From: Rhodocyclaceae bacterium
GTDB lineage: Bacteria; Pseudomonadota; Gammaproteobacteria; Burkholderiales; Rhodocyclaceae
Direction: 5' to 3'
Assembly (NCBI GenBank): GCA_013791905.1
Contig: VMSX01000030.1
Span: 290,741 to 354,740, forward strand
Length of the DNA: 64,000 nucleotides
Shown here: in pieces, positions 132-50,503 of the stretch
Position numbering within the stretch: position 1 is the first letter of the stretch
How the letters are laid out: the number at the start of each line of letters is the position of its first letter
Position numbers and translations under genes: made by a program
The notes under the pieces: generated by a model
Databases searched by the model: none
Seen by the model: the letters and a program-made list of their open reading frames with translations, nothing else
Told to the model about the DNA's origin: nothing

Positions 132-176
132 AAAAGTCGGCGCTGGTGGGACGGCGTGCCCCGCATGTGGTACGGC
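132..176 (+). repeat. Dispersed repeat, long copy (intergenic)
   Basis: Copy of the dispersed repeat whose core reads AAAGTCGGCGCTGG followed by a GGGACGG-like segment. This copy also has the second module, with GTGCCCCGCATG and GGTACGG. It lies between the CDF gene and the broken MazF-like gene. Its first 24 bases are identical to the copy inside purL at 21556-21579. Confidence 0.85.
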
Positions 177-241
177 CCTACTGCCCCTCGACGGCCCGGT
201 AATGCGCCTGCACCGGTTCCATCACGGCGTAGCTGCCGCAA

Positions 242-327
242 TCATGCAGGGCGACGCTTGCTGGCGGACATATCCGTGAAAGGGAAAGGAAAGGCACCAG
301 AACGATGTCACCGGAGCGGAACGTCAT
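242..327 (-). pseudogene. Broken MazF/PemK-family toxin remnant
   Basis: The ATG at 325-327 overlaps the end of the DUF2281 antitoxin gene, as expected for a toxin in an antitoxin-toxin operon. It opens MTFRSGDIVLVPF, the N-terminal motif of MazF/PemK endoribonucleases. The next family motif (PFTDMSASKRRPA) is present but in another frame. A pentanucleotide run of TTTCC-type units lies exactly at the switch, pointing to slippage. A stop follows RRPA and the rest of the roughly 110-residue protein is missing. It is almost certainly non-functional. Confidence 0.75.
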
Positions 328-508
328 TCCAGACCTCGTCGTCGGCGTTGTCCCACACATGCGAGAGTGAAACTGTTTGGGCGTTCTGCCAATCGTTGAA
401 TTCTCCGCGCTCGCGTGCTTGTAGGAAGCGGACGAAATCGAGCGCTTCCCTTGCCAGTGATTCGGGCAAGGTGCCGGCAATGCGGGCGATTTGTTCGGCG
501 ATGGTCAC
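308..508 (-). CDS. DUF2281-like antitoxin (66 aa)
   Basis: Small protein of the DUF2281 type: an N-terminal MTIAEQIARIAGTLPESL helix and a DFVRFLQARE motif, then an acidic tail ending near VWNDVPLR. Such proteins usually neutralise MazF/PemK or VapC toxins. The GTG start at 508 has AGGAG eight bases upstream and overlaps the stop of the MmeI-like gene (505), so both are probably co-transcribed. The downstream toxin is frameshifted and truncated, leaving this antitoxin without a working partner. Confidence 0.65.
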   Translation of the reverse strand: MTIAEQIARIAGTLPESLAREALDFVRFLQARERGEFNDWQNAQTVSLSHVWDNADDEVWNDVPLR

Positions 509-3339
509 GGTTTTTCTCCTGTAGATGGGGCCGCACGCGCCAAGTTTAGAGCAAGAAGCCGGCGCAGAATTTCTTCGTCCGACATTGCCGGCGTGTAATC
601 GTTCCAGCCGTAGGCGGTGGCGACGGCCGCGTCGAGCGCCTTGTGGGCGTTATCGAGCCAGGCTGGGCGGACATTGTAGAGATTGGTCAGCGTGCGCTTT
701 TTCAAATCGGCTTCGTGACCGGTCCTGGCGACGATGCGGTCGGGGTAACCGGGGACGATCTCGGGGATGTGTTCCGTCCATTCCGGCGGGTTGAGCCAGT
801 TTTCGCGGAGTTCGTTTAGGTGGTGAGCGGCGGTTGAGATAGCCTCGATATTCCCTCCGTTCGGAAAGGGGTACGGATCGAAACATTTCGAAGTCGTATA
901 GACGGGGTCGTTGCCTACGCCGAGCCTCCCTCCAGCGGCAATGGCCCAGACAACGTGGAAACGCGACGATAGCAGACCGAACATTTCGTCATCTTCGCGC
1001 GGAATCACGACGAGCTTATGTTCGGCAGCAACACTGGCCGGCAGCCAGACAAAAACACGATGTTTCGCCGTTTCAACAGTCACAATGAAACGCGAAAGAC
1101 TGTGCAACTTAGAGCGAAGTTCCGGTCGCGATCTTCCATGTCTCCACCAGAACTCTGCGCGACTTTTTTCGCGATTCCCAATCCGCACAGGTCTGACGTG
1201 TTTCATCACATAATCAAACGGCGCTTCGTAAAGAGCAGCCTCCTCCTCAAGCATCGTCGGGCCAAAGTCGACCACCCATCGGTCGGCGAACCGCGCCGTG
1301 ACATCGGCACCGTTAAAAATTGGTCGAAGCACATCGCTGTTGGGAAGGCCGTTGGGATTCGGCATTCTGAGCCACGCACGGGCAAGATCACCTGATATAC
1401 GGAATTCGCCCGCCAAACATATTCCAAAATACGTCCAGCCACGATTCGGCGACAACGGCTTGGCTTGCGTCACATCAACCAGCGCGCGCTCCGCGCTGCT
1501 CGCCTTGAGATCGGAAAAAATCTCATCCACTTCTTGTCCGTCAAGGCGAGCCTGTTGGCCATCACCAAAACAGACCAACGACACTCGCACATCTGCACCG
1601 TCATTGACCCACGGCTCGTCGCCCCACGCCTCGAAAATCGGTGCAATCTGCAATACTCGCTCCAATACCCGACGGTTTGTTGCCTGACGTATTGAGTTGG
1701 TCGCAACCAGCCCCACCCCCTTGCACGCGCCCGCCTCAATCTGCGCTCGCGCTTTCTCGAACCAGTAGGTCACCAAATCGGCACCGCCCGGTACGCGGCC
1801 TTCGTAGCACTTGCGCAGCGCCGTCACATAGTCGTCGCCGAGTTCGCCGCGCATTTTTTTGTCGCCGAGAAACGGCGGATTGCCCACAATCGCATCGCAT
1901 TCCGGCCATTCGGCCTCAAGCGCCGTCCCGCCAGCGCCGACTTTTATCAGCGCGTCGCGGTTCTCGATGGTGTCGAGTGGTTTGAGGATCGGCTGGGCGG
2001 AAACCGGGTAGCCGTTCCGCAGCATCCATTGAATCTCGCCAATCCAGACGGTGACACGGGCCAGTTCGGCGGCGTAGGGGTCAAGTTCGATGCCCAGCAC
2101 GTTGACGGGAGAGACTTCGATGCTCACCTGCCGATGCAGGCCAAGCGCTTCGGCTTCGACGTTGGCGCGACGTTCCAGGTCTTTCAGTGCCTTGAGCGCG
2201 AGATAAAGAAAATTGCCGCTGCCGCAGGCGGGGTCGAGCACGCGGTAATTGCGCAGGCGTTCGAGGTGGTGCTGGAAGATCGCGGTGGCGTCTTTGTGGG
2301 CCTTGTCGTTCTGCTTCTTCGACTTGTTCAGCTTGGCGGTGATTGCCGCCATGGCGGCCTGCCATTCCAGCGTGAGCGGACGCACGATCACCGGATCGAT
2401 CAGACGCATGATGGTGGCCGGATCGGTGTAATGCGCACCGAGTTGGGAACGCTTGGCGGGGTTGAGGCCGCGCTCGAACAGCGTGCCGAAGATCGAAGGG
2501 TCGATGTTGCGCCAGTCCATTTCGGCGGCATGCTGCAAGGCGGCGATGTCCTCGCGGGTTAGCGGCGGCACGGCTATGGTCTGGAACAGCCCGCCATTGA
2601 ACCAGGCGATGGTTTCGTCGCCATAGTCGCCACCGTTCTGCATGGCGACGAACAAGGCGGTGAGCCGGTTTGTGGCACGCGCCGGGTCGGCGGCGGCCTT
2701 GGTCAGCAAACCGGTGAAAACGCCGCGCGGCAGCAGATTCTCGTCCTCGGCGAACATGCAGAACAGGCACTGGATGAGGAAGTGCGCGACCTGTTGAGGA
2801 AAATGAGGCGCTTCCTGCCCGCGCTTGCGCAGGGTTTCGGCCAGTGCGCCGAATTTGCCGGCGGCCTCTTCGGTGATGGCGGCAAGCGATTTGACCGGCC
2901 GCAATTTCTCGGGATCGGTGAACACCCAGCGCAGGATTTGCAGGTTTTCCGGCTGGCCGATGTCGGCGATAGTGATGGTGCGCGGCTGGTCGGGATAGCC
3001 GGTGAAGGCGGTATGAATCTCGATGCGTTCGCGGTCGCTAACCACCAGCAGAGGCGGATTCTCCAGTTCCAGCGCGTAGTCGGTGAGTTGCTTGAGCGCG
3101 GCTCGCAGGTCGCGTCCCGGCCGCTTGTTTTCCCAGCCGAAATGGCCGCGCTTCCAGACATCGGCCCAGCCGTCACCACCGCTGGCCTTGCCGGCGCCGC
3201 GCTCGAAACAGTAGCTGCCCGAATCGCGCGGCTTATCGACACCGAGCAGATCGCACAGGTCGTCGAAGTGTCCTTGCGCCCCGGCGCGTTCGGAAAGCGG
3301 GTTGTCTTTCCAGCGGGCGATGAACTGTGCAGGTATCAT
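505..3339 (-). CDS. MmeI-like type IIL restriction-modification enzyme
   Basis: Single-chain restriction endonuclease and adenine methyltransferase of the MmeI class. An N-terminal nuclease domain carries D-x(n)-ExK (ADVWKRGHFGWENK, residues ~60-72). A helical spacer follows, then an N6-adenine methylase with motif I DPACGSGNF (~369) and motif IV NPPF (~487), then a target-recognition region and C-terminal helices. The length (~944 aa) is normal for the family. I prefer the ATG at 3339 (MIPAQFIARW), which matches family N-termini, over the GTG at 3354. The gene contains an in-frame copy of the dispersed repeat (KVGAGGT) just before motif IV. It is flanked by two decayed toxin-antitoxin modules. 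As one enzyme cuts and methylates, no separate partner is needed. Confidence 0.85.
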   Translation of the reverse strand: MIPAQFIARWKDNPLSERAGAQGHFDDLCDLLGVDKPRDSGSYCFERGAGKASGGDGWADVWKRGHFGWENKRPGRDLRAALKQLTDYALELENPPLLVVSDRERIEIHTAFTGYPDQPRTITIADIGQPENLQILRWVFTDPEKLRPVKSLAAITEEAAGKFGALAETLRKRGQEAPHFPQQVAHFLIQCLFCMFAEDENLLPRGVFTGLLTKAAADPARATNRLTALFVAMQNGGDYGDETIAWFNGGLFQTIAVPPLTREDIAALQHAAEMDWRNIDPSIFGTLFERGLNPAKRSQLGAHYTDPATIMRLIDPVIVRPLTLEWQAAMAAITAKLNKSKKQNDKAHKDATAIFQHHLERLRNYRVLDPACGSGNFLYLALKALKDLERRANVEAEALGLHRQVSIEVSPVNVLGIELDPYAAELARVTVWIGEIQWMLRNGYPVSAQPILKPLDTIENRDALIKVGAGGTALEAEWPECDAIVGNPPFLGDKKMRGELGDDYVTALRKCYEGRVPGGADLVTYWFEKARAQIEAGACKGVGLVATNSIRQATNRRVLERVLQIAPIFEAWGDEPWVNDGADVRVSLVCFGDGQQARLDGQEVDEIFSDLKASSAERALVDVTQAKPLSPNRGWTYFGICLAGEFRISGDLARAWLRMPNPNGLPNSDVLRPIFNGADVTARFADRWVVDFGPTMLEEEAALYEAPFDYVMKHVRPVRIGNREKSRAEFWWRHGRSRPELRSKLHSLSRFIVTVETAKHRVFVWLPASVAAEHKLVVIPREDDEMFGLLSSRFHVVWAIAAGGRLGVGNDPVYTTSKCFDPYPFPNGGNIEAISTAAHHLNELRENWLNPPEWTEHIPEIVPGYPDRIVARTGHEADLKKRTLTNLYNVRPAWLDNAHKALDAAVATAYGWNDYTPAMSDEEILRRLLALNLARAAPSTGEKP
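1921..1945 (-). repeat. Dispersed repeat copy inside the MmeI-like gene
   Basis: Core-length copy (25 bp, no second module) read in frame as K-V-G-A-G-G-T between the catalytic motifs I and IV of the methylase. It matches the long copy at 3356 over the whole core. Confidence 0.8.
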
Positions 3340-3355
3340 GACGGCATTCTGCACG

Positions 3356-3424
3356 AAAGTCGGCGCTGGCGGGACGGAGTGCCCCGAAGCGGGTATGAAA
3401 TGCCCCGCATGAGGTACGGCGCGA
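3356..3424 (+). repeat. Dispersed repeat, longest copy
   Basis: Most complete copy: the core, then GTGCCCCGAAGCGGG, then a second GCCCCGCATG...GGTACGGCG module. It fills the gap between the MmeI-like gene and brnA, in the place where the promoter of the restriction gene would be expected. Confidence 0.85.
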
Positions 3425-3441
3425 ACATCCGCGCTGCTTGC

Positions 3442-3708
3442 TTAACGAGTGTGCAACTTCTCCTGTAGCCAGACCTTGATCAAGGACTGGTAGGGAACAT
3501 CGCGGGCATTGGCAGCTGCCTTGATCGAGTCGAGCAGATGCTGGGGCAGACGCAGCGAAATCGTCTTGGTCGTGGGTTTCAGGTTCGGCAGAACGACACG
3601 CTGCGCCTTCGACCAATCGAGATAGTCCGCCGAATCATGCGATTCCCAAAAAGCGCGCTCCTCGGTCTCGTTGGCGAATTGCGGAGTTTTTTTAGTCGAT
3701 TTGTTCAT
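3442..3708 (-). CDS. brnA: BrnA-family antitoxin (88 aa)
   Basis: CopG/BrnA-type antitoxin. It shows the family pattern of an acidic N-terminal region (ETEERAFWESHDSADYLDW), LKPTTKTISLRLP, and a C-terminal ribbon-helix-helix ending in RDVPYQSLIKVWLQEKL. BrnA binds and represses its own promoter and neutralises the RNase BrnT. The ATG at 3708 overlaps the tail of a BrnT remnant, which is the normal brnT-brnA overlap. BrnT itself is missing apart from its last residues, so this is an orphan antitoxin. Confidence 0.8.
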   Translation of the reverse strand: MNKSTKKTPQFANETEERAFWESHDSADYLDWSKAQRVVLPNLKPTTKTISLRLPQHLLDSIKAAANARDVPYQSLIKVWLQEKLHTR

Positions 3709-3760: not shown

Positions 3761-3797
3761 GCGGGAGGTCAAATGAAGTTTCCGGGATAATAGCGCC

Positions 3798-4814
3798 ATG
3801 AACTCTTTGCCTCCACTTCTCGACAAACTCGGCCGCCCGGTGCGCGACCTGCGTATCTCGGTCACCGACCGCTGCAACTTCCGCTGCGTGTATTGCATGC
3901 CGAAGACGGTGTTTGGCCGCGACTATCCGTTTTTGCCGCGTCAGGGCCTGCTCTCCTTCGAGGAAATTACCCGTGTGGCAAGGGTTTTCGCAGCCCGTGG
4001 GGTGAAGAAGGTTCGCCTGACCGGTGGCGAGCCGATGTTGCGGCATGGCATCGACAAGCTGATCGGCATGCTGGCGGAGATTCCCGACCTCGAAATCACC
4101 CTGACCACCAATGGTTCGCTGCTGCCGCAAAAGTCGGCGCTGCTGCGCGCTGCCGGCCTCCAGCGCGTCACGGTTAGCCTGGATGCGCTGGACGATGCGA
4201 TTTTCAAGCGCATGAACGATGTCGATTTTCCGGTCGCCAAGGTGCTGGATGGCATTGCGGTCGCCGCTGCCGCCGGACTCGGGCCGATCAAGGTCAACAT
4301 GGTGGTCAAGCGCGGCGTCAACGACCACGAGATTCTGGCCCTGGCCAGCCACTTCCGGGGCTCGGGCCACATCCTGCGCTTCATCGAGTACATGGATGTC
4401 GGCAGCAGCAACGGCTGGAAGCTCGACGAGGTCGTGCCGTCTGCCGAGGTGGTGCGCCGCATCGACACCGAGTTTCCGCTCGAACCCATCGACGCGAACT
4501 ATCCCGGCGAAGTCGCCCAGCGCTGGCGCTACAAGGATGGCGCCGGCGAGATCGGCGTGATTTCGTCTGTGACGCGGGCATTTTGCGACACCTGCACGCG
4601 CATCCGGCTGTCCACCGAGGGCAAGCTCTATACCTGCCTGTTTGCCCAGTCCGGTCACGACCTGCGCGACCTGATCCGCGCCGGCAAGAGCGATGCCGAA
4701 CTGGATGCCGCCATCGCCGGCATCTGGCAGGCGCGGGATGATCGTTATTCGCAGTTGCGCATGGCGGCAACGCCGCATCTGCAGAAGATCGAGATGTCCT
4801 ACATCGGTGGCTGA
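3798..4814 (+). CDS. moaA: GTP 3',8-cyclase (molybdenum cofactor biosynthesis protein A)
   Basis: Radical-SAM enzyme that, with MoaC, converts GTP to cyclic pyranopterin monophosphate, the first step of molybdopterin synthesis. The N-terminal cluster motif CNFRCVYC (C26, C30, C33) and the C-terminal substrate-binding cluster motif CDTC...C (C263, C266, C280) are intact, as is the C-terminal GG needed for activity. The 338-residue length is typical. It is followed after two bases by mobA, and this window holds two molybdoenzymes (type II enzyme at 34 kb, YedY1 at 61 kb) that need the product. Confidence 0.97.
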
Positions 4815-6623: not shown

Positions 6624-8814
6624 GCTGCACGCTCGAAACTCCGGGGACTTCGCCCAACACGGTAAGAATGCGCTGCAACTGGGCAGAACTGCCCAGTTCG
6701 ACGGTAAACGCCATGCGCGCCACGCCTACCTTGGATTGCGTCTTCACTGCCGTGACATTTATTTTTTCCTTCGACAGCACATCGGAAATGTCGCGCAGCA
6801 GACCCTGACGATCTGTTGCTTCCACGTAAATATCGCAGGAATAAATGCTCTCGTGCTTGCCGCCCCATTGCGCGTCGATGACCCGTTCCGGATTGCGCGC
6901 GACCATGTTGCGGAAATTGGGACATTCGATCCGATGCACCGAAACGCCTCGCCCACGAGTGACAAAACCGGCGATGACATCGGGCGGTACTGGCTTGCAG
7001 CAGCTGCCCAGTTGCGTCAGCAACTTGTCCATGCCGACTACCAGAATCTGGCCGCTGCTGCCGGGCTCCGCCTTGGCGGCATGCGTCTGGATCTCGGGTT
7101 CGAGCTCGGTCGGTGCCGTTTCGCCGCGCAAGGCAACCTGAATCGCCCGCATGCCCACCTCGCCGCGCGCAGCGGCAAGGAACAAATCATTGGCATGCTT
7201 GAAACCGAGCTTGTGCGCCAGGTCCTCGTGATTGGCTTGCGACGCCCCATCACGCTGCAATTCACGCAGCACGAAGGCGCGCCCTTCCGTCAGCATCTGC
7301 GCTTCCTGCTGGGCGGCAAACCAGGCCTTGACCTTCGTGCGGGCGCGCGCGGTCGCCAGATAGCCCTGCGTCGCCGACAGCCAGTCGCGCGACGGCCCGC
7401 CGCTCTTGGCGACGGTGATCTCGACCTGCTGACCGCTGTGCAACGGGGTATTGAGCGGCACCAGATGACCGTCGACCTTCGCGCCGCGACAGCGGTGGCC
7501 CAAGTCGGTATGCACGCGATAGGCGAAATCGATCGGCGTCGCGCCCTTGGCGAGATCGATGACGCGGCCCTGCGGCGTCATCACGTAAATGGTGTCGTCG
7601 AGCGCGGCACGCTTGAACTGCTCGACCCACACCGCCGAGTCGGTGATCTCGTCGCGCCACGACAAGAGCTGCCGCAGCCAGGCAATCTTGTCGTCATACG
7701 CCGAATCGGCCTTGGCCGACGTGCCTGATTCCTTGTAGCGCCAGTGGGCGGCAACACCCATCTCGGCGTGCTGGTGCATCTCCTGGGTGCGAATCTGCAC
7801 CTCGAGCGCCCGCCCCGCCTCGTCCATCACGGCGGTATGCAGCGAGCGGTAATGGTTGCCTTTGGGGTGGGAGATGTAATCGTCGAACTCACCATGGATC
7901 GGCTGCCACAGGGCATGCACGATGCCGAGTGCCGTGTAGCAATCGCGCACCGAGTCGAGGATGATGCGCAGTGCCCGAACGTCATACACCTGATCGAACT
8001 CAAGATGCTTCTGGCGCATCTTGCTCCAGATGCTGTAGATGTGCTTGGGCCGGCCATGCACTTCGGCGTGGGTAACGCCCGATTTCGCCAGTTCTTCCTT
8101 CAGTTGCGCGATCGCCGTGGTGATAAAGGACTCGCGCTCCAGGCGCTTTTCGTCGAGCATTTTGGCGATGCGCTTGTAGGTCGCCGGATCGACAAAACGG
8201 AACGACAGGTCCTCGATCTCCCACTTGATCTGCCAGACGCCGAGCCGGTTGGCGAGCGGCGCATAGATCTGCTGGCTTTCGCGCGCGATGTCGGCGCGCT
8301 CCGGCGTGTCGTGGTCGGCGTACCAGCGCAGCGTCTGGGTGCGCGAGGCCAGCCGCACCAGCACGACGCGGATGTCGGCGGCCAGCGCCATGAGCATCTT
8401 GCGCATGATCTCGGCCTGCGCCTGCACGCCCTGGGCGCTCTGCGCGGTGGCCAGCGTCAGTGGCCGAAGATGTTTCAAGCGATGGAGTCCATCGACCAGA
8501 TCGGCTACCGCAACGCCCCAACGAGCGGCAATGGTTTCACGGGAATTCTTCAGATGGTCGGGGGCGGCAAACAGCAGCGCCGCCAGACGGCTGTCGATGT
8601 CGAGATTAAGCGAAGCGAGAATCAGTGTCGTGCCGAGCGCATGGCCGAACGCCGTCTCGCCAGTACCGATTTTCGACTCGCCATACAATTCGCGGGCATA
8701 GCCGATGGCCTCCACCAGCCGGTCGACGCCTTCGTCCGCAAGCCCGGCGGCAAGGTGGCTCAGGCTAGCTTCATCGATACCTGAATCGGGCAGGGAGTGG
8801 ACAACAGAAACCAT
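6616..8814 (-). CDS. relA: (p)ppGpp synthetase RelA
   Basis: Long RSH protein, 732 residues: degenerate hydrolase domain, synthetase domain, TGS domain and C-terminal ACT domain. In the hydrolase region the HD motif of SpoT is replaced (LFAAPDHLKN), so hydrolysis is not expected. The synthetase has YSIWSKMRQK, the EFDD motif that marks RelA-type enzymes (residues near GEFDDYISHPKGNHYRSLH) and EVQIRT. The TGS block (DDTIYVMTPQGRVIDLAKGA) and the ACT end are intact. It makes the alarmone on starved ribosomes. Confidence 0.95.
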   Translation of the reverse strand: MVSVVHSLPDSGIDEASLSHLAAGLADEGVDRLVEAIGYARELYGESKIGTGETAFGHALGTTLILASLNLDIDSRLAALLFAAPDHLKNSRETIAARWGVAVADLVDGLHRLKHLRPLTLATAQSAQGVQAQAEIMRKMLMALAADIRVVLVRLASRTQTLRWYADHDTPERADIARESQQIYAPLANRLGVWQIKWEIEDLSFRFVDPATYKRIAKMLDEKRLERESFITTAIAQLKEELAKSGVTHAEVHGRPKHIYSIWSKMRQKHLEFDQVYDVRALRIILDSVRDCYTALGIVHALWQPIHGEFDDYISHPKGNHYRSLHTAVMDEAGRALEVQIRTQEMHQHAEMGVAAHWRYKESGTSAKADSAYDDKIAWLRQLLSWRDEITDSAVWVEQFKRAALDDTIYVMTPQGRVIDLAKGATPIDFAYRVHTDLGHRCRGAKVDGHLVPLNTPLHSGQQVEITVAKSGGPSRDWLSATQGYLATARARTKVKAWFAAQQEAQMLTEGRAFVLRELQRDGASQANHEDLAHKLGFKHANDLFLAAARGEVGMRAIQVALRGETAPTELEPEIQTHAAKAEPGSSGQILVVGMDKLLTQLGSCCKPVPPDVIAGFVTRGRGVSVHRIECPNFRNMVARNPERVIDAQWGGKHESIYSCDIYVEATDRQGLLRDISDVLSKEKINVTAVKTQSKVGVARMAFTVELGSSAQLQRILTVLGEVPGVSSVQRA

Positions 8815-14959: not shown

Positions 14960-15205
14960 GGTCGCAAAACCCGCGTCGGCTATTCGCTAGCAAGTCCTCT
15001 GCTTCATGATAGTCAAACTCGCTCAGATCACCATGCGGAGCGGAGCAGCAAGCCTCCGGACAGTTCCACCGGCTAGCCAACCCGGTTCAGCCAGACGCAG
15101 CCATTAAATTCTGTTGGGGAGTTCACCCGCGAACTACAAACCCATGCATTGCTGCTCGACGGCTCATACAATATTCATCCCATCTCCATTGCATACCAGC
15201 CAGCC

Positions 15206-16018
15206 ATGATCCCAGCCGACCTTGCAGCCCTTGAAACCGTTGTCCGCACTGCGGCGCGCGAAGAATTGCTCGAGCGCTTTCGCCACACCACACGCCACGA
15301 GAAGGCAGACGGCAGTTGGTTGACCGAAGCCGACCTGGCGATGCAGTCGCGCCTGAAGTCGGCGCTGGCAGAACGGCACCCCGGGATCGCCTTGCTCGGC
15401 GAAGAAATGACTGCGGCGGAACAGCAACGGCTGCTGGTCGAGGCCGGCGTAGCGCCTGGCGATGAAGACAGCGGGCTGTGGATTCTCGATCCACTTGACG
15501 GCACCAGCAACTTCGCCGCCGGCATCCCGCTGTTTTCCGTTTCGCTGGCACTGATGCGCCAGGGCCGCATCGAAGCCGGCATCGTTTTCGACCCGATTCA
15601 TGATGAATCCTTCGCCGCCCTGCGCGGCCACGGCGCCACGCTCAACGGCGCAGCACTGCGCGCCGCGGCGCCCGGCATCCCGCTCGCCAAGGCCACGGCC
15701 TGCATCGACTTCAAGCGCCTGCCCGCCGCGCTGGCCGCGCGCATCGCTGCGACACCACCCTACTCATCGCAGCGCTCGATCGGCTCGGTGGCGCTCGACT
15801 GGTGTTGGGTGGCGGCGGGCCGCTTCCATCTTTACCTGCAGGGTCGCCAAAGCCTATGGGACTATGCCGCCGGCAGCCTGATCCTCGCAGAGGCCGGCGG
15901 CCATGCCGACACCCTCGACGGCCGCCCCGCGCAACTGGACCTCGTGCCGCGCTCAGCCGTCTGCGCAGCCGACCGACGGCTGTTCGAGCAATGGCTCGAC
16001 TACCTGCGGGCAAGCTGA
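15206..16018 (+). CDS. Inositol monophosphatase family protein
   Basis: Mg2+-dependent phosphatase of the IMPase/CysQ/FIG superfamily. Metal-binding motifs are visible: GEE (ALLGEEMTA), WILDPLDGTSNFA, and the C-terminal GSVALDWCWVAAGRF...WDYAAG. I use the ATG at 15206 (MIPADLAALE), which matches family starts; the frame is open to 15149 but that stretch looks non-coding and holds a TACAAT-like -10. The substrate (inositol phosphate, PAP or fructose bisphosphate) cannot be decided. A copy of the dispersed repeat lies in frame (K-S-A-L-A-E-R). Confidence 0.88.
   Translation: MIPADLAALETVVRTAAREELLERFRHTTRHEKADGSWLTEADLAMQSRLKSALAERHPGIALLGEEMTAAEQQRLLVEAGVAPGDEDSGLWILDPLDGTSNFAAGIPLFSVSLALMRQGRIEAGIVFDPIHDESFAALRGHGATLNGAALRAAAPGIPLAKATACIDFKRLPAALAARIAATPPYSSQRSIGSVALDWCWVAAGRFHLYLQGRQSLWDYAAGSLILAEAGGHADTLDGRPAQLDLVPRSAVCAADRRLFEQWLDYLRAS
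15356..15377 (+). repeat. Dispersed repeat copy inside the IMPase-like gene
   Basis: Twenty of 22 bases match the repeat core; it is read in frame as K-S-A-L-A-E-R. Because the residues also fit the protein family, descent from the repeat is less sure here than for the intergenic copies. Confidence 0.5.
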
Positions 16019-17992: not shown

Positions 17993-20900
17993 CTAGCCGA
18001 CCCACATCCGCGCGTTGCGGAACATCCTCATCCACGGCGAATCCTCACCCAGCCCGGTCGGATGCCAGGACATCTGCGCCGTGCGGAAGACGCGTTCGGG
18101 GTGCGGCATCATGATGGTGAAGCGGCCGTCCGGCGTGGTCACGCCGGTGATGCCGTCGGGGGAGCCGTTGGGATTGAACGGATAGGTCGTGGCCGCCGCG
18201 CCGCGATTGTCGATGTAGCGCAGTGCGATGTCAGGACAGGTTGGGGCGGCAAACACGGCACGTCCCTCGCCGTGCGACACGACCACCGGCAGCTTGGAGC
18301 CGGCCATGCCGGCAAAGAAGATCGACGGTGAAGGGGGAATTTCCACCATCGCAAAGCGTGCTTCGAACTGTTCAGAGCGGTTGCGATGAAAGGTCGGCCA
18401 TGAGCCTGCGCCGGGAATGATGGTTGCCAGGTTGCTCATCATCTGGCAACCGTTGCAGACACCCAGCGCGAAAGTGTCGGAACGCGCGAAGAAGGCGGCG
18501 AACGCGTCCTTGAGTTCGGGATGGAAGAGGACGGACTTGGCCCAGCCCTGCCCGGCGCCCAGTACGTCGCCGTAGGAAAAGCCGCCACAGGCGGCGAGGC
18601 CCTTGAAATCGGCCAGTTGCACGCGGCCGGCCATCAGGTCGGACATGTGGACATCTACGCAAGCGAAGCCGGCGCGGTCGAAGGCGGCGGCCATCTCGAC
18701 CTCGCCATTGACGCCCTGTTCCCGGAGAATTGCCATGCGCGGCCGATTGCCGCCGATTGAGAATGCCGCAGCCGGGTTCTCGTTCGGGTCGAAGGTCAGT
18801 TGCAATGACAAACCCGGATCGCCGGCATCGAGCAGGGCATCGAACTCCTCCTGCGCGCAGACCGGGTCGTCGCGCAGCCTGGCCACCTGATAACTCACCT
18901 CGCTCCAGACGCGTTGCAGCTCGGCACGCCGTACCGCCAGCGCCGACTTTGCGTTGCGCCAGATGCGGATCTCGTCGGCATTGTTGAGCGTGCCGATGAC
19001 GTGGGTGCAGGCACCCAGCCCCGCGTCACGCAGCGTCTGCAGCACGGCATCGCGGTCGGCGCGACGCACCTGGATCACCGCGCCGAGTTCCTCATTGAAC
19101 AGCGCTTTGATCATGCGGTCGTGCATGCGGCCGCCGAGCAGTTCGGGTTTCTTCTCGATGCCATCGACGTCGTTCATCTGCGGGTCGTAGCAGAGCGCGT
19201 CGAGGTTGAGCGAAACACCCTGATGGCCCGCGAAGCTCATTTCGCATACCGTGGCGAACAGGCCGCCGTCGGCACGGTCGTGGTAAGCGAGGATCTGCGG
19301 CCGCAGGCTCTGGATGGCGGTGAAGAAAGCCTTGAGCAACGCGGCATCGGCATCCGGCGGCACATCGCCGCTCTGCCCGAACACCTGCGCCAGCGCCGAA
19401 CCGCCGAGGCGATTCTGGCCGGCGCCGAGGTCGATCAGGATCAGTTCGCTATCGTGACCGGGACCGACGTCCGCATCGGCTTGCAGTTGCGGTGTCAGCG
19501 TCCGGCGGATGTCGACACAGGGCGCAAAGGCGGTGACGATCAGCGACAGCGGCGCGGTGACCATCTTGGTCTGGCCGGCCTCTTCCCATTTTGTGCGCAT
19601 CGACAGCGAATCCTTGCCGACCGGGATCGAAACGCCCAGCGCCGGACAGAATTCGAGGCCGACGGCCTTGACGGTGTCGAACAGCGCGGCGTCTTCGGTG
19701 CTGGGTCCGGCGGCCGACGCGCCATGGCCGGAAGCGGCCATCCAGTTGGCCGAAAGCTTCACCATGCCCAGGCCATCCACCGTGGCGGCGGCCAGGTTGG
19801 TCAGCGCCTCGCCGACCGCCATGCGTCCCGAAGCCGGGGCATTCAGCAGGGCCAGCGGCGTGCGCTCGCCCATGGCAAAGCACTCGCCGAGATTCGTGTC
19901 GTAGCCCATCGCCGTCACGGCCACATCGGCGACCGGCGTCTGCCACGGCCCGACCATCTGGTCGCGCGCCGTCATGCCGCCCACCGAACGGTCGCCGATG
20001 GTGATGAGGAAATTCTTCGATGCCACGGCGGGCAAGCGCATCACACGCAAGGCCGCCTCCCTGATGTCGATGGCCGCAAGGTCGAGCGCCGGCATGCTGA
20101 CGGTCTTGCGCGCGGCATTGCGATGCACGCGCGGCGGCTTGCCGAGCAGCACTTCCATCGGCATGTCGACGGGCAGGTTGCCGAAATGATCGTCCGCGAC
20201 GACGAGCTGGCGTTCCTCGGTCGCCGTGCCGATCACGGCATGCGGGCAGCGCTCGCGCTCGCACAGCGCCGCGAATTCGGCCAGCCGTTGCGGGGCGATG
20301 GCCAGCACATAGCGTTCCTGCGACTCGTTACACCAGATTTCGCGCGGCGCCATGCCCGGTTCCTCGTTGGGCACGGCGCGCAGGTCGAAGCGTGCGCCGC
20401 GGCCGGCATCGTTGGCGAGTTCCGGCATGGCATTCGATATGCCGCCGGCACCGACGTCATGGATGGCGAGAATGGGATTGTCGTCACTCATCTGCCAGCA
20501 GCGGTCGATGACTTCCTGCGCACGGCGTTGCATCTCGGGGTTGCCGCGCTGCACCGAGGCAAAGTCGAGATCGGCGGCATTGGTGCCGGTGGCCATCGAG
20601 GATGCCGCGCCGCCGCCCAGACCGATCAGCATGCCGGGGCCGCCGAGCTGGATCAGCAGGGTGCCGGCCGGAAAATGTTCCTTGAAACATTGCCGCGCGG
20701 CAATGTTGCCGACGCCGCCGGCGACCATGATCGGCTTGTGATAGCCGCGCATCTCGCCGTCGAATTCCTGCTCGAAGGTGCGGAAATAACCGGCCAGGTT
20801 GGGCCGGCCGAATTCGTTGTTGAAGGCCGCTGCGCCAATCGGCCCTTCGATCATGATGTCGAGCGCGGAGGCAATGCGGTCGGGCTTGCCGTAGGCGGAT

Positions 20901-21916
20901 TCCCAGGGTTGTGCGTAGCCCGGAATCTTCAGGTCGGAGACGGAAAAGCCGGACAGCCCCGCCTTCGGCTTGGAACCGCGCCCGGTCGCGCCTTCGTCGC
21001 GGATCTCGCCGCCCGAGCCGGTGGCGGCGCCGGGAAAGGGTGAAATGGCGGTCGGGTGATTGTGGGTTTCTACCTTGGCGAGGATGTGCGTCAGGTCTTC
21101 GACATAGCCATAGCCGCCGTCAGACTGTGCGTTGAAGCGCTTGATCAGTGCGCCCTCGATCACGGACGCGTTGTCGGAATAGGCCACCACCGTGCCTTCC
21201 GGGTGCGCCTGGTGCGACGCGCGGATCATGCCGAACAGCGTTTGCGTCTGGTCGACGCCGTCGATGGTCCACGAGGCGTTGAAGATCTTGTGGCGGCAGT
21301 GTTCGGAGTTGGCCTGGGCGAACATCATCAGTTCGACGTCGGTCGGGTTGCGCCCGATCTTGCTGAAGTTTTCGACGAGATAGTCGATCTCGTCCTCCGA
21401 CAAGGCCAGCCCAAGTTCGCCGTTGGCGCGCACCAGTGCCGCGCGCCCGCCGGCAATGACATCCACGGCGGTCAGCGGTTGCGGGGCAACATGGTGGAAT
21501 AAAGCATCTGCGGCGTCGATGGAAGCGAGCACCGATTCGGTCATGCGGTCGTGGAGCCGTCCCACCAGCGCCGACTTTTCTCCACCGTTGAAGTGATAGG
21601 CAATGCCGCGCTCGATACGATGGACGGCGGCAAAGCCGCAGTTGTGCGCGATGTCGGTCGCCTTCGAGGCCCACGGCGAAATCGTGCCGAGGCGCGGCGT
21701 CACCAGCATCAACTGCCCCGCGGGCGCGGGCGGCAACTCAGCTGGAATTCCCAGCAGATCCTTGAGTCGTGTTTGTTCAACGTCGCCGAGAGGTGCAGCG
21801 GTCTCGATGAAATACCAGTGTTCGGCGATCAGCGGAACCCCGACCAGTTCGGCCAAACGGGCAAGACGGGAAGCGGAAAAGGCGGCGGTGCCGCGAAGCT
21901 TGAGAATGTCGGCCAT
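17993..21916 (-). CDS. purL: Phosphoribosylformylglycinamidine synthase
   Basis: Large single-chain FGAM synthase (1307 residues), fourth step of purine synthesis: FGAR + Gln + ATP to FGAM. Domain order: N-terminal PurS-like region, linker, tandem AIRS-type synthetase domains, and C-terminal class I glutaminase. Visible landmarks include [10 protein letters not shown], the glycine-rich ATP region [17 protein letters not shown], the glutaminase nucleophile in [12 protein letters not shown], and the terminal MPHPERVFR. Two copies of the dispersed repeat lie in frame ([11 protein letters not shown] and [11 protein letters not shown]). The gene is complete, with no frameshift seen. Confidence 0.97.
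18923..18950 (-). repeat. Dispersed repeat copy inside purL (3' part)
   Basis: Matches the intergenic copy at 132 at 26 of 28 positions, including the GTGCC after the core. It is read in the purL frame as K-S-A-L-A-V-R-R-A. Confidence 0.75.
21556..21579 (-). repeat. Dispersed repeat copy inside purL (5' part)
   Basis: Twenty-four bases identical to the start of the intergenic copy at 132-155. It is read in frame as K-S-A-L-V-G-R, directly before the conserved LHDRM segment of PurL. Confidence 0.8.
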
Positions 21917-25660: not shown

Positions 25661-26008
25661 ATGATCCGCATCTACGGCATCAAGAATTGCGATAGCGTGA
25701 AGAAGGCCCTGACCTGGTGCCAGGCGCACGACATCGACTATGAATTCCACGATTACAAGAAACAGGGCGTGCCGCGTGACCGGCTGGTCGAGTGGTGCCG
25801 CAACGCCGGCTGGAAAACCCTGCTGAACACCAAAGGCTCCACCTGGCGCAAGCTAACCCCCGAGCAGCAAGCCGTTTCCACGCAGAGCCAGGCGGTGGCA
25901 GCGATGGTCGAGCACCCGAGCGTGATCCGCCGGCCACTGATCGAAACGCCTGACGGGAAATTACTGGTCGGTTTCGATCCGACCCTGTTTGAAAGCTTCG
26001 TACGATGA
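25661..26008 (+). CDS. ArsC-family reductase-like protein (YffB-type)
   Basis: 115-residue thioredoxin-fold protein. It opens MIRIYGIKNCDSVKKAL with a single Cys in the position of the ArsC/Spx catalytic Cys (CDS rather than CxxC) and contains the family's KGSTWRKL and IRRPLIE blocks, typical of YffB rather than true arsenate reductases. GGAG at 25650-25653 sets the ATG at 25661. The longer open frame upstream is non-coding. Its stop codon forms part of the hairpin repeat at 26007. Confidence 0.85.
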   Translation: MIRIYGIKNCDSVKKALTWCQAHDIDYEFHDYKKQGVPRDRLVEWCRNAGWKTLLNTKGSTWRKLTPEQQAVSTQSQAVAAMVEHPSVIRRPLIETPDGKLLVGFDPTLFESFVR

Positions 26009-26039
26009 GAAACACGCCGGGCCGCCCCAAGTGTTTCTC
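26007..26039 (+). repeat. Conserved-loop hairpin, copy 2
   Basis: Perfect nine-base arms GAGAAACAC (26007-26015) and GTGTTTCTC (26031-26039) around the 15-nt core GCCGGGCCGCCCCAA (26016-26030). The 5' arm begins inside the TGA stop of the ArsC-like gene. A further G/C stem (CCCCCT/GGGGGG, 26043-26055) follows. It lies in the short gap before hslO. Confidence 0.85.
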
Positions 26040-26129
26040 CGCCCCCTGGGGGGAGAACGTCGCGCAGCGGCGTTTTGCGAGTTGGGCAGCAAGCTGCCCA
26101 TCCCTGCTTACCCCGTTGCGGGGGGGGAT

Positions 26130-27017
26130 ATGCTGATGGATAGTGTCCGTCGTTTCCTGTTTGAAGATTTGGATATCCGCGGCGCCATGGTGTCGCTCGG
26201 CAACGCCTGGCACGAGATGAGCGCCGGCCGTGACGATCCGCCGGCCGTCCAGGCCCTACTGGGCGAACTAACAGCGGTCACCACGCTGATCGCCGGCAAC
26301 CTCAAGACACCCGGCCGGCTCGGCTGCCAGTTGCGCGGGCATGGGCTGGTATCGCTGCTGCTGGTCGATTGCGACGAGCAACTGCAGCTGCGCGGAACGG
26401 CACGGCATGCTGACGCCGTCCACCTATCACGCGGCGCTCCGGCTGACGCCGTACCCGCTGCGGGGCATTTCATCCCGCCAGCGCCGACTTTTGCCGAACT
26501 GCTCGGCGACGGCCAGTTGACCCTCATGCTGCAAACCGGCCGCGGCGACCCTTACCAGAGCGTCGTGCCACTTGTCGGCGACAGCCTGAAAGCAGTGTTC
26601 GAACATTACCTCGTCCAGTCCGAGCAGCAACCCGCGTGGCTGTTCCTCACCGCCGACGACCAGTTTGCCGGCGGCCTGTTTCTGCAAAAACTGCCGGATG
26701 CCGACACGAAGGACCCGGATGGCTGGAACCGCCTCATGCATCTGGCCGCCACGCTCAAGCCGGCGGAGCTGCGGGAATCGCCCGCCAAGCTGCTGATGAT
26801 TCTGTTTCCGGAAGAAAACATCCGCCTGTTCGACCCGCGCCCGGTGCGTTACCACTGCCCGCGCGACGAGGAGAAGGTGCTGGCAATGCTGAAAAGCATG
26901 GGCCGCGCCGAAATCGAAGCGGCACTGGCCGAGCAGGGAGAGCTGGCCATCGAGGACGAGATCTGCCGCCACAGTTATCGCTATGGCAGGGAGATCGTAC
27001 CCCGGCTTTTTGACTGA
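26130..27017 (+). CDS. hslO: Hsp33-family redox chaperone with altered zinc centre
   Basis: Hsp33 holds unfolding proteins during oxidative heat stress and is switched on by release of Zn from four Cys. Family signatures are clear: MDSVRRFLFEDLDIRGAMVSL, LQLRGTAR, ELLGDGQLTLML, PYQSVVPL and YLVQSEQQPAWLFL. Two oddities stand out. Between LRGTARH and FAELLGDG there are ~20 extra residues encoded by an inverted copy of the dispersed repeat. In the C-terminal switch only two of four Cys remain (RYHCPRD and EDEIC instead of CxC and CxxC). Start is the ATG at 26130 or 26136; the frame is open to 25989 but that part is repeat sequence. Confidence 0.88.
   Translation: MLMDSVRRFLFEDLDIRGAMVSLGNAWHEMSAGRDDPPAVQALLGELTAVTTLIAGNLKTPGRLGCQLRGHGLVSLLLVDCDEQLQLRGTARHADAVHLSRGAPADAVPAAGHFIPPAPTFAELLGDGQLTLMLQTGRGDPYQSVVPLVGDSLKAVFEHYLVQSEQQPAWLFLTADDQFAGGLFLQKLPDADTKDPDGWNRLMHLAATLKPAELRESPAKLLMILFPEENIRLFDPRPVRYHCPRDEEKVLAMLKSMGRAEIEAALAEQGELAIEDEICRHSYRYGREIVPRLFD
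26447..26492 (-). repeat. Dispersed repeat, long copy inserted in hslO
   Basis: Reads on the minus strand: the core AAAAGTCGGCGCTGGCGGGA, then GAAATGCCCCGCA and GGGTACGGCG, matching the second module of the 3356 copy. Antisense to hslO but in frame, it encodes V-P-A-A-G-H-F-I-P-P-A-P-T-F. It coincides with the extra loop of this HslO relative to the family. Confidence 0.8.
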
Positions 27018-29703: not shown

Positions 29704-29871
29704 ATGCGAAAGCGCCTGTATGACCTGGTCGCACGCATCGGCAAGGTCGCGGATGACCGGAAACGCGTCAATTTCCTCGAACTGCCGTCCCGCCAGCGCC
29801 GACTTTTTCAGTACAGACGTTCGATGCAAAGACCGAAGTATTGTCGCAACGTGATAATCGCCACACAGTAA
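29704..29871 (+). pseudogene. Truncated third ArsR-rhodanese regulator
   Basis: The start reads MRKRLYDLVARIGKVADD then RKRVNFLEL, aligning with MDKSRRIKDLLYEQVARIGKASSSPKRLELIEL of the intact paralogue (shown in parts). Homology ends exactly where a copy of the dispersed repeat begins (29784-29807). The frame then continues through unrelated sequence to a stop at 29869. The rest of the winged helix and all of the rhodanese domain are missing. Confidence 0.75.
29784..29807 (-). repeat. Dispersed repeat copy at the break of the arsR remnant
   Basis: Exact copy of the core (AAAAGTCGGCGCTGG then CGGGACGGC on the minus strand). It abuts the last recognisable codons of the truncated regulator. 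Confidence 0.85.
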
Positions 29872-31124: not shown

Positions 31125-31169
31125 CCCCCCACGCTCACAAAAACGGTTCGCTGCCCCCACAGGGTGGCG

Positions 31170-31202
31170 CATGCCTTCTTGGGACGGCCCGGCGAAGGCA
31201 TG
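31170..31202 (-). repeat. Conserved-loop hairpin, copy 3 (spans the nifS-like start codon)
   Basis: Perfect nine-base arms CATGCCTTC (31170-31178) and GAAGGCATG (31194-31202) around TTGGGACGGCCCGGC, the reverse complement of the 15-nt core with one substitution. The ATG of the cysteine desulfurase is the last three bases of the 3' arm, so a folded mRNA would bury the start codon. TTCGCTGCCCCC lies on the outer side. Confidence 0.85.
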
Positions 31203-32351
31203 AATTTCCCCATTTACCTCGACTACAACGCGACCACGCCGGTAGCACCGGAAGTGGCCGCCGTCATTCGCCCCTGGCTGGAGCAACACTTTGGCAACCC
31301 GTCGTCTTCCCATGTCTATGGGCAGCAAGCTCGCCAGGCCGTTGCGCAGGCCCGCAACCACGTCGCCGCGCTGATCGGTTCTGACGACGCGGAAATCGTC
31401 TTTACCGGCGGCGCCACGGAGGCCAACAATCTGGCGCTGCTCGGAGTGGCCCGTGCATACCATGCGCTCGGTGACAAGAAACGCCATCTGGTCATCAGTG
31501 CGATCGAGCATCCGGCGGTGATGCAGCCGGCCCTGCATCTGCGGGAACTGGGCTGGGAAGTCACCGTCTTGCCGGTCGATAGCGCCGGGCGTGTTGCAGT
31601 AAAGGACCTGGCTGCCGTCCTGCGCCCCGACACGGCTCTGGTATCCGTGATGCACGCCAACAACGAGGTCGGCACGCTACAGCCGCTCACCGAGATCGCC
31701 GCACTGGCGCGGGCCAACGGCACACTAGTGCATACCGATGCCGCCCAGTCGGCCGGCAAGTTATCCGTCAATGTCGATGCGCTCGGCATTGATTTGCTGA
31801 CGCTCGCGTTCCACAAGTTTTATGGCCCCAAGGGGATCGGCGCGCTTTACGTGCGACGTGGCACGCCGCTCAAGCCGATCCTCTTTGGCGCTGATCAGGA
31901 ACACGGCCAACGCCCCGGCACAGAAAACGTCGCCCTGATAGTCGGCGCTGGCGAGACGGCGCGACTGGCACGTGAGCGTCTGCCAGGAGCGACACAGCAT
32001 CTCGCGAGCGTACGTGACGAACTGCACCGTCGCCTTGCTGGCGCAGTGCCGGGGCTCATGCTCAATGGCCATCCCGATCATCGGTTGCCGAATACGCTGC
32101 ATGTCTCGTTCCCCGGCGTTTCCGGGCGTGAGTTGCTGGCTGCCGTAGCCGATGAGATTGCCGCGTCGGTGGGCTCCGCCTGCCATTCCGAAGCCGATGC
32201 CGTCAGTGGTGTCCTCGCGGCCATGGGTTGCAATGCCGCGCGGGCACGCGGCGCCGTGCGGTTGTCGGTAGGGCTTGCCACAAGCGAACAAGATGTTATC
32301 CACGCAAGTTCGGCTCTCGCCGATGCCTGGAAAAAGCTGTCGATACGCTGA
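31200..32351 (+). CDS. Cysteine desulfurase (NifS/IscS-like)
   Basis: Removes sulfur from cysteine as an enzyme-bound persulfide. The start MNFPIYLDYNATTPVAPE matches NifS/IscS N-termini, so I use the ATG at 31200 and not the upstream in-frame start at 31164, which lies in a repeat. PLP Lys is in AFHKFYGPKG and the catalytic Cys in VGSACHSEADAVSGVL; 383 residues. No iscU, iscA or nifU is adjacent, so it is not part of a standard cluster-assembly operon. It likely feeds sulfur (or selenium) chemistry of the surrounding cluster. Contains a repeat-like segment (I-V-G-A-G-E-T). Confidence 0.88.
   Translation: MNFPIYLDYNATTPVAPEVAAVIRPWLEQHFGNPSSSHVYGQQARQAVAQARNHVAALIGSDDAEIVFTGGATEANNLALLGVARAYHALGDKKRHLVISAIEHPAVMQPALHLRELGWEVTVLPVDSAGRVAVKDLAAVLRPDTALVSVMHANNEVGTLQPLTEIAALARANGTLVHTDAAQSAGKLSVNVDALGIDLLTLAFHKFYGPKGIGALYVRRGTPLKPILFGADQEHGQRPGTENVALIVGAGETARLARERLPGATQHLASVRDELHRRLAGAVPGLMLNGHPDHRLPNTLHVSFPGVSGRELLAAVADEIAASVGSACHSEADAVSGVLAAMGCNAARARGAVRLSVGLATSEQDVIHASSALADAWKKLSIR
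31940..31961 (+). repeat. Dispersed repeat copy inside the cysteine desulfurase gene
   Basis: Twenty-one of 22 bases match the repeat core; read in frame as V-G-A-G-E-T. The encoded residues are compatible with the NifS family, so convergence cannot be excluded. Confidence 0.5.
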
Positions 32352-48698: not shown

Positions 48699-49054
48699 GC
48701 CATGCCAAGTCGCGTGAAGTCGTACTCCCCATCAAGCTCACCGCCGAACTGAGCAAAGCGCTCGAGACTTTGCGCGATGCCTGGCGGCAGGATCCCGGCA
48801 CGGTGCTGAAGGGCATCTCCTGCTCCGAATCGAAAGAGGGGCAGTTCGTCCTGATCGCGGCCGAATCGGCATTTACCACGCTGCCGGGCGCATGCGTCAT
48901 CAAGGGGATTGGCGCGGTGGAGCTTGCCGGCGCGGAGATCGAATTCGAAGCGGGCGCCAGTTCGAAGACCCTGGTCTTGCGCGATACCCCCGAAGGCTGG
49001 CGGTTTTCGGTGAAATACCTGCCGCCCATCGTGCGGGAAAGAAACCTGAAGTAA
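48695..49054 (+). CDS. Conserved small protein of unknown function (119 aa)
   Basis: Starts in a four-base overlap with the DUF3482 GTPase gene, so it is translationally coupled to it. Mixed alpha/beta composition, no signal peptide, no membrane helix, two Cys, no motif I recognise. Third member of the DUF2868/DUF3482 operon by position. Confidence 0.6.
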   Translation: MSHAKSREVVLPIKLTAELSKALETLRDAWRQDPGTVLKGISCSESKEGQFVLIAAESAFTTLPGACVIKGIGAVELAGAEIEFEAGASSKTLVLRDTPEGWRFSVKYLPPIVRERNLK

Positions 49055-49064
49055 TCTCCTTGTC

Positions 49065-49469
49065 ATGGATTACCGCTACACCATCCCCTTCGAAGAAGTT
49101 GAAATCACGGCCATCCGCGCCCAGGGGGCGGGCGGACAGAACGTCAACAAGGTATCGAATGCGGTGCATCTGCGCTTCGACATCAATGCCTCCTCGCTGC
49201 CGGAAGCGGTGCGTGAACGGCTCCTCAAGCTCGGCGATCAACGCATCAGCAAGGACGGTGTCGTCATTATCAAGGCGCAGCAGTATCGCAGCCTCGAAGG
49301 CAACCGCGCCGATGCGTTAAGACGCCTGCATGAGATGATCGACAGCATCGCTGTCCTGCCCAAGCAGCGCCGGCCCACCAAGCCCGGCCGCAATGCGATC
49401 GCGCGGCGGCTCGACAGCAAAACCCGCCATGCCACAATCAAGGCGGGCCGCGGCAAGGTGAAGGAGTGA
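49065..49469 (+). CDS. arfB: Alternative ribosome-rescue factor ArfB
   Basis: 134-residue peptidyl-tRNA hydrolase that frees stalled ribosomes. The catalytic GGQ motif is in AQGAGGQNVNKVSNAVHLRF, and the C-terminal basic tail (RRPTKPGRNAIARRLDSKTR) enters the empty mRNA channel. Length and layout match ArfB/YaeJ rather than release factors. Confidence 0.95.
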   Translation: MDYRYTIPFEEVEITAIRAQGAGGQNVNKVSNAVHLRFDINASSLPEAVRERLLKLGDQRISKDGVVIIKAQQYRSLEGNRADALRRLHEMIDSIAVLPKQRRPTKPGRNAIARRLDSKTRHATIKAGRGKVKE

Positions 49470-49537
49470 CACCGACCGAATGACGCCCGGCTGTTATCCT
49501 TGCCAGGACCACCGCTCAGCATATGAGGGTAAATGTC

Positions 49538-50503
49538 ATGTCTGCAGTAGAAACCGTACTGAATGCCGGATCGACCGGGCGGATTATTGCCGCACTGCTT
49601 GAGCCCCATGCCCGCATCTCGCCCAAATATTTCTACGATGTACGCGGGTCGGCACTGTTTGAAGACATCACGCGACTGCCCGAGTATTACCTGACGCGCA
49701 CCGAGCGCGCGGTAATGGCCACGCATGGCGCTGACATCGCACGGAAAGTCGGCGCTGGCAGGACGGCGATCGAACTGGGTGCAGGCAGTTGCGAGAAGGC
49801 CCGGGCACTGTGCGAACTGATCGAACCGGCGCGGTTTATCGCCGTCGATATTTCTGCCGAGTTCCTGCATGAGGGCGTCGCCGGATTGCGCGCGGCGTTT
49901 CCCGCGCTCGACGTGCGTGCCGTCGCCGCCGACCTGACGCAGGAAATCGTCCTGCCGGACATCCCGCGCGCACAGCGGCTGGTGTTTTATCCCGGTTCGT
50001 CGATCGGCAACTTCGCGCCGCCCGATGCCCTGAATTTGCTGGTGCGCGTGCGGCATCTGCTGGATGACGACGGCGCCCTGTTGATCGGCGTTGACCTGGT
50101 CAAGGATGTCGCCGTGCTCGAAGCCGCCTACAACGATGCCGCCAATGTCACCGCCGCCTTCAACCGCAACATACTGAGTCACATCAATCAGCTGATCGGC
50201 AGCGATTTCGATCTGCGCCAGTGGCAGCATCGGGCGTTTTTCAATGCCGCCGAGTCGCGCATCGAGATGCATCTGGAAGCGGCGGCGGATACGCTGGTGC
50301 GCTGGCCCGGCGGCGAGCGCCGCTTTGCGCGCGGTGAACGCATTCACACCGAACACAGCCACAAATACCGGCGCGAGGATTTTGTCGCCCTGCTGGCGCG
50401 TGCCGGCTTTCCGCAAGCCGAGGTGTGGACCGATGAACGCCAATGGTTCGCAGTGATCCTTGCCCGCCCCGCACAACTTCCCGACTTGAAGGAGCCGCGA
50501 TGA
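49538..50503 (+). CDS. egtD: L-histidine N(alpha)-methyltransferase EgtD
   Basis: Makes hercynine from histidine, first step of ergothioneine synthesis. 321 residues from the ATG at 49538, which has GAGGG at a good distance; the ATG at 49523 overlaps that site. Family marks: YFYDVRGSALFEDITRLPEYYLTRTE (shown in parts: YDVRGSALFEDIT, LPEYYLTRTE), IELGAGSCEKAR, and FYPGSSIGNF. A repeat-like stretch (K-V-G-A-G-R-T) precedes the SAM-binding loop. It overlaps egtB by four bases (ATGA). Confidence 0.95.
   Translation: MSAVETVLNAGSTGRIIAALLEPHARISPKYFYDVRGSALFEDITRLPEYYLTRTERAVMATHGADIARKVGAGRTAIELGAGSCEKARALCELIEPARFIAVDISAEFLHEGVAGLRAAFPALDVRAVAADLTQEIVLPDIPRAQRLVFYPGSSIGNFAPPDALNLLVRVRHLLDDDGALLIGVDLVKDVAVLEAAYNDAANVTAAFNRNILSHINQLIGSDFDLRQWQHRAFFNAAESRIEMHLEAAADTLVRWPGGERRFARGERIHTEHSHKYRREDFVALLARAGFPQAEVWTDERQWFAVILARPAQLPDLKEPR
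49745..49767 (+). repeat. Dispersed repeat copy inside egtD
   Basis: Twenty-two of 23 bases match the core; encodes K-V-G-A-G-R-T directly before the SAM-binding motif. Confidence 0.6.

Follow-up and report, generated by a model that had tools for sequence, protein, structure and literature searches.

What kind of element recurs, nearly unchanged, at about ten places in a stretch of 64,000 nucleotides from a Rhodocyclaceae bacterium (hereafter the window), both between genes and within them? The sequence-only reading of this DNA left two explanations in competition, a REP-like mobile element that tolerates landing in genes and a selected DNA motif. Of these, the selected motif is supported by the comparisons described here, and the mobile element is contradicted by the substitutional origin of the copies, by their spacing and by the different repeat that flanks the RAYT gene of this genome. 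The repeat looks like a motif that was assembled letter by letter and has been kept by selection in part of one family of environmental bacteria. In our best reading, uptake fits this motif better than chromosome organisation does, and we propose that it serves as a sequence-specific DNA-uptake signature similar to the DUS of Neisseria or the USS of Haemophilus, a function to which the genome comparisons lend a probability of roughly 0.64. The copies found in the window are as follows.

132-156, plus strand: motif copy with 1 mismatch of 23, intergenic; a 21-bp unit (152-172), whose first five bases coincide with the end of the motif, is followed by CGGC to 176.
1921-1945, minus strand: exact motif copy in an MmeI-like restriction-methylation gene (505-3354, minus), read as K-V-G-A-G-G-T.
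3355-3421, plus strand: composite copy just upstream of the MmeI-like gene, consisting of the left 19 bases of the motif (3356-3374), two 21-bp units (3375-3416) and CGGCG.
8650-8674, minus strand: degenerate motif copy with 4 mismatches of 23 (8651-8673) in a RelA/SpoT gene, additional to the ten listed previously.
15354-15378, plus strand: motif copy with 3 mismatches in an inositol monophosphatase-family gene (15149-16018), read as K-S-A-L-A-E-R.
18927-18951, minus strand: motif copy with 1 mismatch in purL (17993-21916, minus).
21555-21579, minus strand: motif copy with 1 mismatch in a purL linker that varies in length; the aligned site holds the motif in six other genera.
26447-26492, minus strand: composite copy in the Hsp33 (hslO) gene (25989-27017, plus), where an in-frame 21-bp unit (26452-26472) splits the motif.
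29783-29807, minus strand: motif copy, exact over 23 bases, intergenic.
31937-31961, plus strand: motif copy with 2 mismatches of 20 in a class-V aminotransferase (NifS/IscS-like) gene (31164-32351); it is retained in G013 at a flank identity of 76%.
49744-49768, plus strand: motif copy with 1 mismatch in a histidine-specific methyltransferase (EgtD-like) gene (49523-50503), read as K-V-G-A-G-R-T.

Alignment of 79 copies with full flanks and at most 4 mismatches, taken from 424 kb, gave the consensus RAAAGTCGGCGCTGGCGGGACGGCG, a repeat of 25 bp with abrupt edges. Only positions 14-17 are weakly conserved and the remaining ones are strong, while outside the 25 bases no column reaches 0.2 bits within 60 bases on either side. 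The repeat described from the letters is thus real, but its unit is 25 bp rather than about 22 bp, since base -1 (A or G) and base +23 (G) belong to it. All ten full copies listed by that reading were recovered at their places with a 20-mer core and up to 3 mismatches, compared with a mean of 0.02 and a maximum of 1 in dinucleotide shuffles of the window. The limit of two mismatches given for them applies to all except the copy at 15355, which has 3; the shorter 14-base match near 4129 is present, and the in-gene copies are indeed read in several frames. Across the whole genome (3.64 Mb, 30 contigs), 527 copies of the 23-mer occur at up to 3 mismatches (266 on the plus and 261 on the minus strand), far above the reversed control, which gave 0. 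The densities of 10 copies per 64 kb in the window and 57 per 360 kb in a second stretch of this genome, C1, lie near the genome-wide average (527 per 3.64 Mb). An Rfam search of the window at gathering scores returned no match to a known RNA element. Other repeats were seen in the window as well: tandem repeats with 15/30-base steps at 60754-60993, and two 39-base copies with an internal inverted repeat (52758-52796 and 60253-60291), which are 87% alike.

The copies at 132, 3356 and 26447 had been described as continuing into a second module. This module exists, but it is a separate 21-bp unit and not an extension of the motif. It contains TGCCCCG...GGTA and sits, once or twice, between the GGGA and the CGGC of the motif; the units step by 21 bp, one of them being a base shorter. 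The window holds four matches to the unit pattern at three places (152-172, 3375-3416 and 26452-26472), and C1 holds 12, one of them in unrelated coding sequence and the remainder at eight places (L031-L048), two of which have no recognisable left half of the motif. In stretches of ten other genomes, some of them short (9 kb for G008), only two unrelated matches were found. At hslO the motif is continuous in the relative G008, and in the window 21 extra in-frame bases split it, most simply explained as an insertion of the unit into the motif. As 21 bases make about two helical turns, the motif halves would keep to one face of the helix, a point of arithmetic and not functional evidence. Whether it lies within the motif or next to it, the unit can fold into a short hairpin.

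Within the genus of the window, 17 of the 18 other genomes searched contain 311-728 copies, and one, G006 (87% complete), contains none. A family survey was carried out with a relaxed frame of 14 fixed bases and 1 mismatch, for which the reversed control gave 0-12 matches per genome. By this measure 40 of 249 sampled genomes are motif-rich (at least 48 copies) and belong to 10 genera (g1, g2, g9, g11, g47, g62, g69, g70, g88 and g90); the other 209 hold at most 22 copies. Six sampled genomes inside motif-rich genera (G006, G277, G194, G124, G217 and G260) lack the motif nearly or totally. In the case of G006 this suggests loss, because a purL tree (one gene, taken without its support values) places this genome within the genus. 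Among 386 genomes from other families of the order, none was motif-dense and none exceeded 9 matches, so that in the sampled genomes the motif is confined to part of a single family. Exact copies in 117 named loci show a comparable distribution: 84 are assigned by NCBI to Rhodocyclaceae and 13 to Sterolibacteriaceae (Sulfuritalea, Sulfurisoma), together 97 of 117, and 17 have no family and 3 come from other families. Among the matches listed, all 80 exact-copy rows derive from metagenome bins.

Near-exact copies in motif-poor genomes bunch on few stretches (G123:C1 at about 1461-1502 kb, contigs C66 and C104 of G097, C50 of G096 and C34 of G339), with five of the eight copies of G123 lying within 41 kb, as if they had been acquired from the DNA of motif-rich species. 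Viral contigs yielded 81 stretches with the motif when one inner base was allowed to vary, at least 3 of them within 200 bases of a contig end. One contig of the viral collection carries five copies (L325:883-2238) at spacings of 316 bases (three times) and 385 bases (once), a pattern that suggests a tandem repeat.

The genera carry lineage dialects of one fixed-length frame. In an unseeded ranking of 9-mers, a motif 9-mer came top in six of the 11 genomes sampled, namely the genome of the window, G017, G028 (AAAGTCAGT), G154 (GAAAGTCAG), G026 (AAAGTCGGT) and G187 (AAAAGTCGG); it was second in G110 and stood behind another repeat in G002, and none was among the ten listed for G006, G016 and G064. 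Seeded PWMs share a common length and the frame AAAGTC...ACGGC, with variation in the inner and last bases: the dialects end in ACGGCA in G017 and G002, TCGGY in G026, TCAGT in G028 and TCAGY in G154. In eight genomes of six genera these PWMs find 1.7-2.6 sites per 10 kb, compared with 0-4 sites per sample for reversed PWMs. The resolved dialects do not include G064, with a weak PWM (15.1 bits, 20 sites vs 4 in the control), or G016, for which the result rests on 32 kb. In G006, nothing convincing emerged de novo, and the 64 sites obtained with a seeded PWM (vs 14 in the control) had another consensus. Dialects can also be followed at one aligned site of purL, residues 109-112, where a tblastn comparison found the motif in seven genera (g1, g2, g9, g62, g70, g88 and g90); in the g9 copy and both g90 copies the bases match those of the respective dialect. 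The linker varies in length at this site, which makes the homology of individual bases less certain.

The other purL copy, at 18931, allows the origin of a copy to be traced. Across the motif columns the alignments of all 19 relatives keep the same overall length: 13 contain no gap, and in the other 6 the gaps, of one or two bases, come in pairs that offset each other. The motif is present in six of these relatives (at most 3 differences) and missing from 13 (6 to 15 differences). At purL the motif-less orthologues do not have the same nucleotides. The corresponding protein stretch measures 32 residues in 21 of 24 rows; the other three (G005, G007 and G021), whose longest frame lies on the wrong strand, are wrong-strand translations and were left out of the reading-frame comparison. 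In the stretches compared, no orthologue of the methylase site was found, and the egtD site gave a single short, poor orthologue alignment. A wider comparison was made between G017 and G002 (400 kb each), where 52 of 83 G017 copies have an orthologous alignment; the copy is kept in 32 and absent in 20. No net length change occurs within 20 bases at 15 of the 20 absent sites. The remaining five, where the length does change, make up a larger fraction than the 16 of 239 seen among random control sites, a difference that a preference of the copies for permissive regions would predict. Together, the purL and G017/G002 length data indicate that copies form mainly by point change and not by insertion; these tests of origin and maintenance draw on purL in 19 relatives and on the G017/G002 pair.

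Once formed, copies are conserved at the positions that carry information. Between G017 and G002, identity at informative positions is 0.918 for the G017 copies (51 aligned of 83; flanks 0.838) and 0.971 for the G002 copies (34 of 53; flanks 0.835), with p=1.7e-6 and p=2.1e-12, respectively, against a random control. At degenerate positions the values are 0.775 and 0.824, and random control sites are flat at 0.882-0.887. The strong result depends on splitting off the degenerate positions, a division taken from the motif logos: with all 23 positions pooled, identity is 0.883 vs 0.854 in the flanks, a small gain that does not rise above random sites (0.886). In-gene copies show the effect as well, at 0.931 and 0.969 vs flanks of 0.852 and 0.848. 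Among intergenic copies, one direction of the comparison gives a significant excess (7 copies, p=0.016) and the other, from G017 to G002, does not (9 copies, p=0.36).

Copies are found in both orientations, and 134 of 203 (66%) in C1, the window, G017 and G002 are intragenic, according to a simple home-made gene caller and with copies overlapping a gene edge scored as intergenic. Their density per 10 kb is nevertheless higher between than within genes (5.89 vs 1.03 in C1, 3.00 vs 1.30 in the window, 6.14 vs 1.65 in G017 and 5.07 vs 0.94 in G002), that is, by a factor of 2.3-5.7. Neighbouring copies avoid one another. Gaps shorter than 1 kb are rarer than expected in C1 (2 vs 8.2, p=0.0056), G017 (6 vs 15.4, p=0.0016) and G002 (1 vs 6.4, p=0.0063), and no such depletion is seen in the window alone, with its 10 copies. 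By the coefficient of variation, spacing is more even than random in G017 (0.69, p=0.0003) and G002 (p=0.034), and not significantly so in C1 (p=0.065) or the window (p=0.70); all these p values assume uniform placement, uncorrected for genic/intergenic heterogeneity. A check for strand bias, which had been suggested from the sequence, found no link with the leading strand as defined by local GC skew in any of the four stretches (24/57 copies in C1, 6/10 in the window, 46/83 in G017 and 32/53 in G002). Raw strands are uneven in the 400-kb stretch of G002 (23 plus and 46 minus at up to 4 mismatches) and even in its whole genome (148 and 163). The three largest motif gaps in C1 and G002 contain 61 listed genes, and the 20 scanned include two transposases in G002, copper, efflux and hydrogenase-maturation genes in C1, and ordinary metabolic genes too; this only hints that the gaps are foreign DNA.

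These properties have to be weighed against other functions. An intracellular protein of chromosome organisation, repair or segregation could use the motif as its binding site, and the copies would then have been selected to spread out, as the even spacing in G017 and G002 and the depleted short gaps in three samples would suggest; the conserved informative positions and the own-stretch densities near the genome mean also agree with it. Karlin argued similarly for the USS, as cited in PMC1939737. The motif resembles KOPS, matS, Chi and parS in being a genome-wide selected DNA motif, and is unlike them in having lineage dialects and in being absent from a related species. KOPS and Chi are strand-biased, and matS and parS are regionally concentrated; the missing GC-skew bias argues against a polar segregation or recombination motif of the KOPS/Chi type, and no regional concentration of the matS or parS kind appears in the stretches examined. 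The dialects within the family, a G006 genome free of copies and the 66% placement in genes suit an essential site less well, and we consider such a role unlikely, though deserving of some weight. A selected regulatory or terminator element, with the in-gene copies as by-products, would account for the denser intergenic placement, but it is at odds with 134 of 203 copies lying in genes in both orientations and with the conservation of those in-gene copies, which makes it highly improbable.

We give almost no credence to a REP- or MITE-like mobile element of about 25 bp with insertions both in genes and between them. REP elements with RAYT transposases are short repeats present in hundreds of copies and denser between genes, and the motif resembles them in all three respects. 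Its copies are many and near-identical, a 21-bp unit has apparently been inserted into the motif at hslO, and the genome has one Y1_Tnp (RAYT-type) gene with a 3-mismatch motif copy about 0.9 kb away. However, this gene, the sole one found (L196:1147-1866), is flanked not by the motif but by a perfect 20-bp inverted repeat of a different family, GGGGTCAGACCACGGTTTTC. Orthologous motif sites differ mostly by substitution, with neither a general insertion signature nor a linked transposase, and in-gene copies are conserved at the substitution level. Copies avoid one another rather than cluster, the degenerate positions are position-specific while the informative ones are kept between species, and the dialects hold a fixed length. 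The evidence from insertion, spacing and the transposase led us to reject a REP/RAYT element.

DNA uptake is favoured because the dispersal of the copies, their occurrence in both orientations and at permissive sites, their origin by point mutation, their spacing, their dialects and their loss resemble what is seen in DUS and USS. The DUS of Neisseriaceae are described as dispersed inside and between genes, with dialects on a common frame and at permissive sites (PMC3630211). The USS of Pasteurellaceae are described as having no orientation bias and, according to some authors, even spacing, with a gradual build-up by point mutation proposed (PMC1939737), and the pilin ComN/PpdA is predicted as their receptor (PMC12616744). 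The motif is like DUS in its many dispersed copies, genic and intergenic, in its lineage dialects and in its permissive sites, and like USS in its lack of orientation bias and in accruing copies by point mutation. It differs from both in sequence, family and length, having 25 bp vs the 10-12 of DUS and a longer information-rich core than USS. It is not a member of Neisseria DUS proper, from which consensus and length differ; only GCCGTC is common to the two sequences. Motif copies are also several-fold sparser than DUS or USS.

For this uptake signature we envisage the following mechanism. Through a receptor at the cell surface, probably one of the minor type IV pilins, cells would favour double-stranded DNA that carries the 25-bp motif. 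The chosen fragments would recombine into the chromosome, and alleles nearer to the motif would slowly gain ground, in either orientation, wherever the site is permissive, as it is between genes and in the variable linkers of proteins. Divergence of the receptor would then give rise to motif dialects. Uptake as the selecting agent, a pilin that reads the motif and recombination as the driver are what we infer from the pattern of copies.

A ComEC-type domain was detected in 43 of 45 genomes tested, in carriers and non-carriers of the motif alike, the two misses being G188 (a carrier, 85% complete) and G217 (80% complete). Pilins of the ComP_DUS family (E<=0.001) occur in 37 of 40 motif-rich and 193 of 209 other family genomes and do not track the motif; the motif-free G006 has kept both the ComEC-type domain and such a pilin. 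Loss of ComEC finds no support as the cause of motif loss, as G006, G277, G194, G124 and G260 all keep it. In the genomes tested, neither the ComP_DUS family nor ComEC separates the motif-rich genomes from the others, and no receptor was identified. Two exact motif copies 2.5 kb apart flank a minor-pilin cluster (L033, C1:42353-48842; cluster at C1:42.6-44.9 kb). This cluster was considered as a receptor candidate and dropped because it reads like MSHA-type pilins.

Sequence-biased uptake of self-DNA is, to our knowledge, established only in Neisseriaceae and Pasteurellaceae, both of which are mostly host-associated. Among the open-access papers listed by our searches, none described the motif or reported uptake sequences from these bacteria, and motif fragments used as text matched only articles on plants and an enzyme. 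The kind of system is known, and the lineage, the motif and the set of dialects appear to be new. The odds lean somewhat towards a third, separately evolved system of self-DNA uptake of a Rhodocyclaceae type, with a 25-bp bipartite signature read by a pilin, dialects in up to ten genera and, in one lineage, a 21-bp unit between the halves. If this is true, a third and environmental group with dialects would offer a test of drive versus mate recognition, and there would be an independent receptor to find. The long motif and the many carrier genera would make receptor-motif coevolution computable, and frequent natural transformation would be implied in bacteria of sediment and wastewater.
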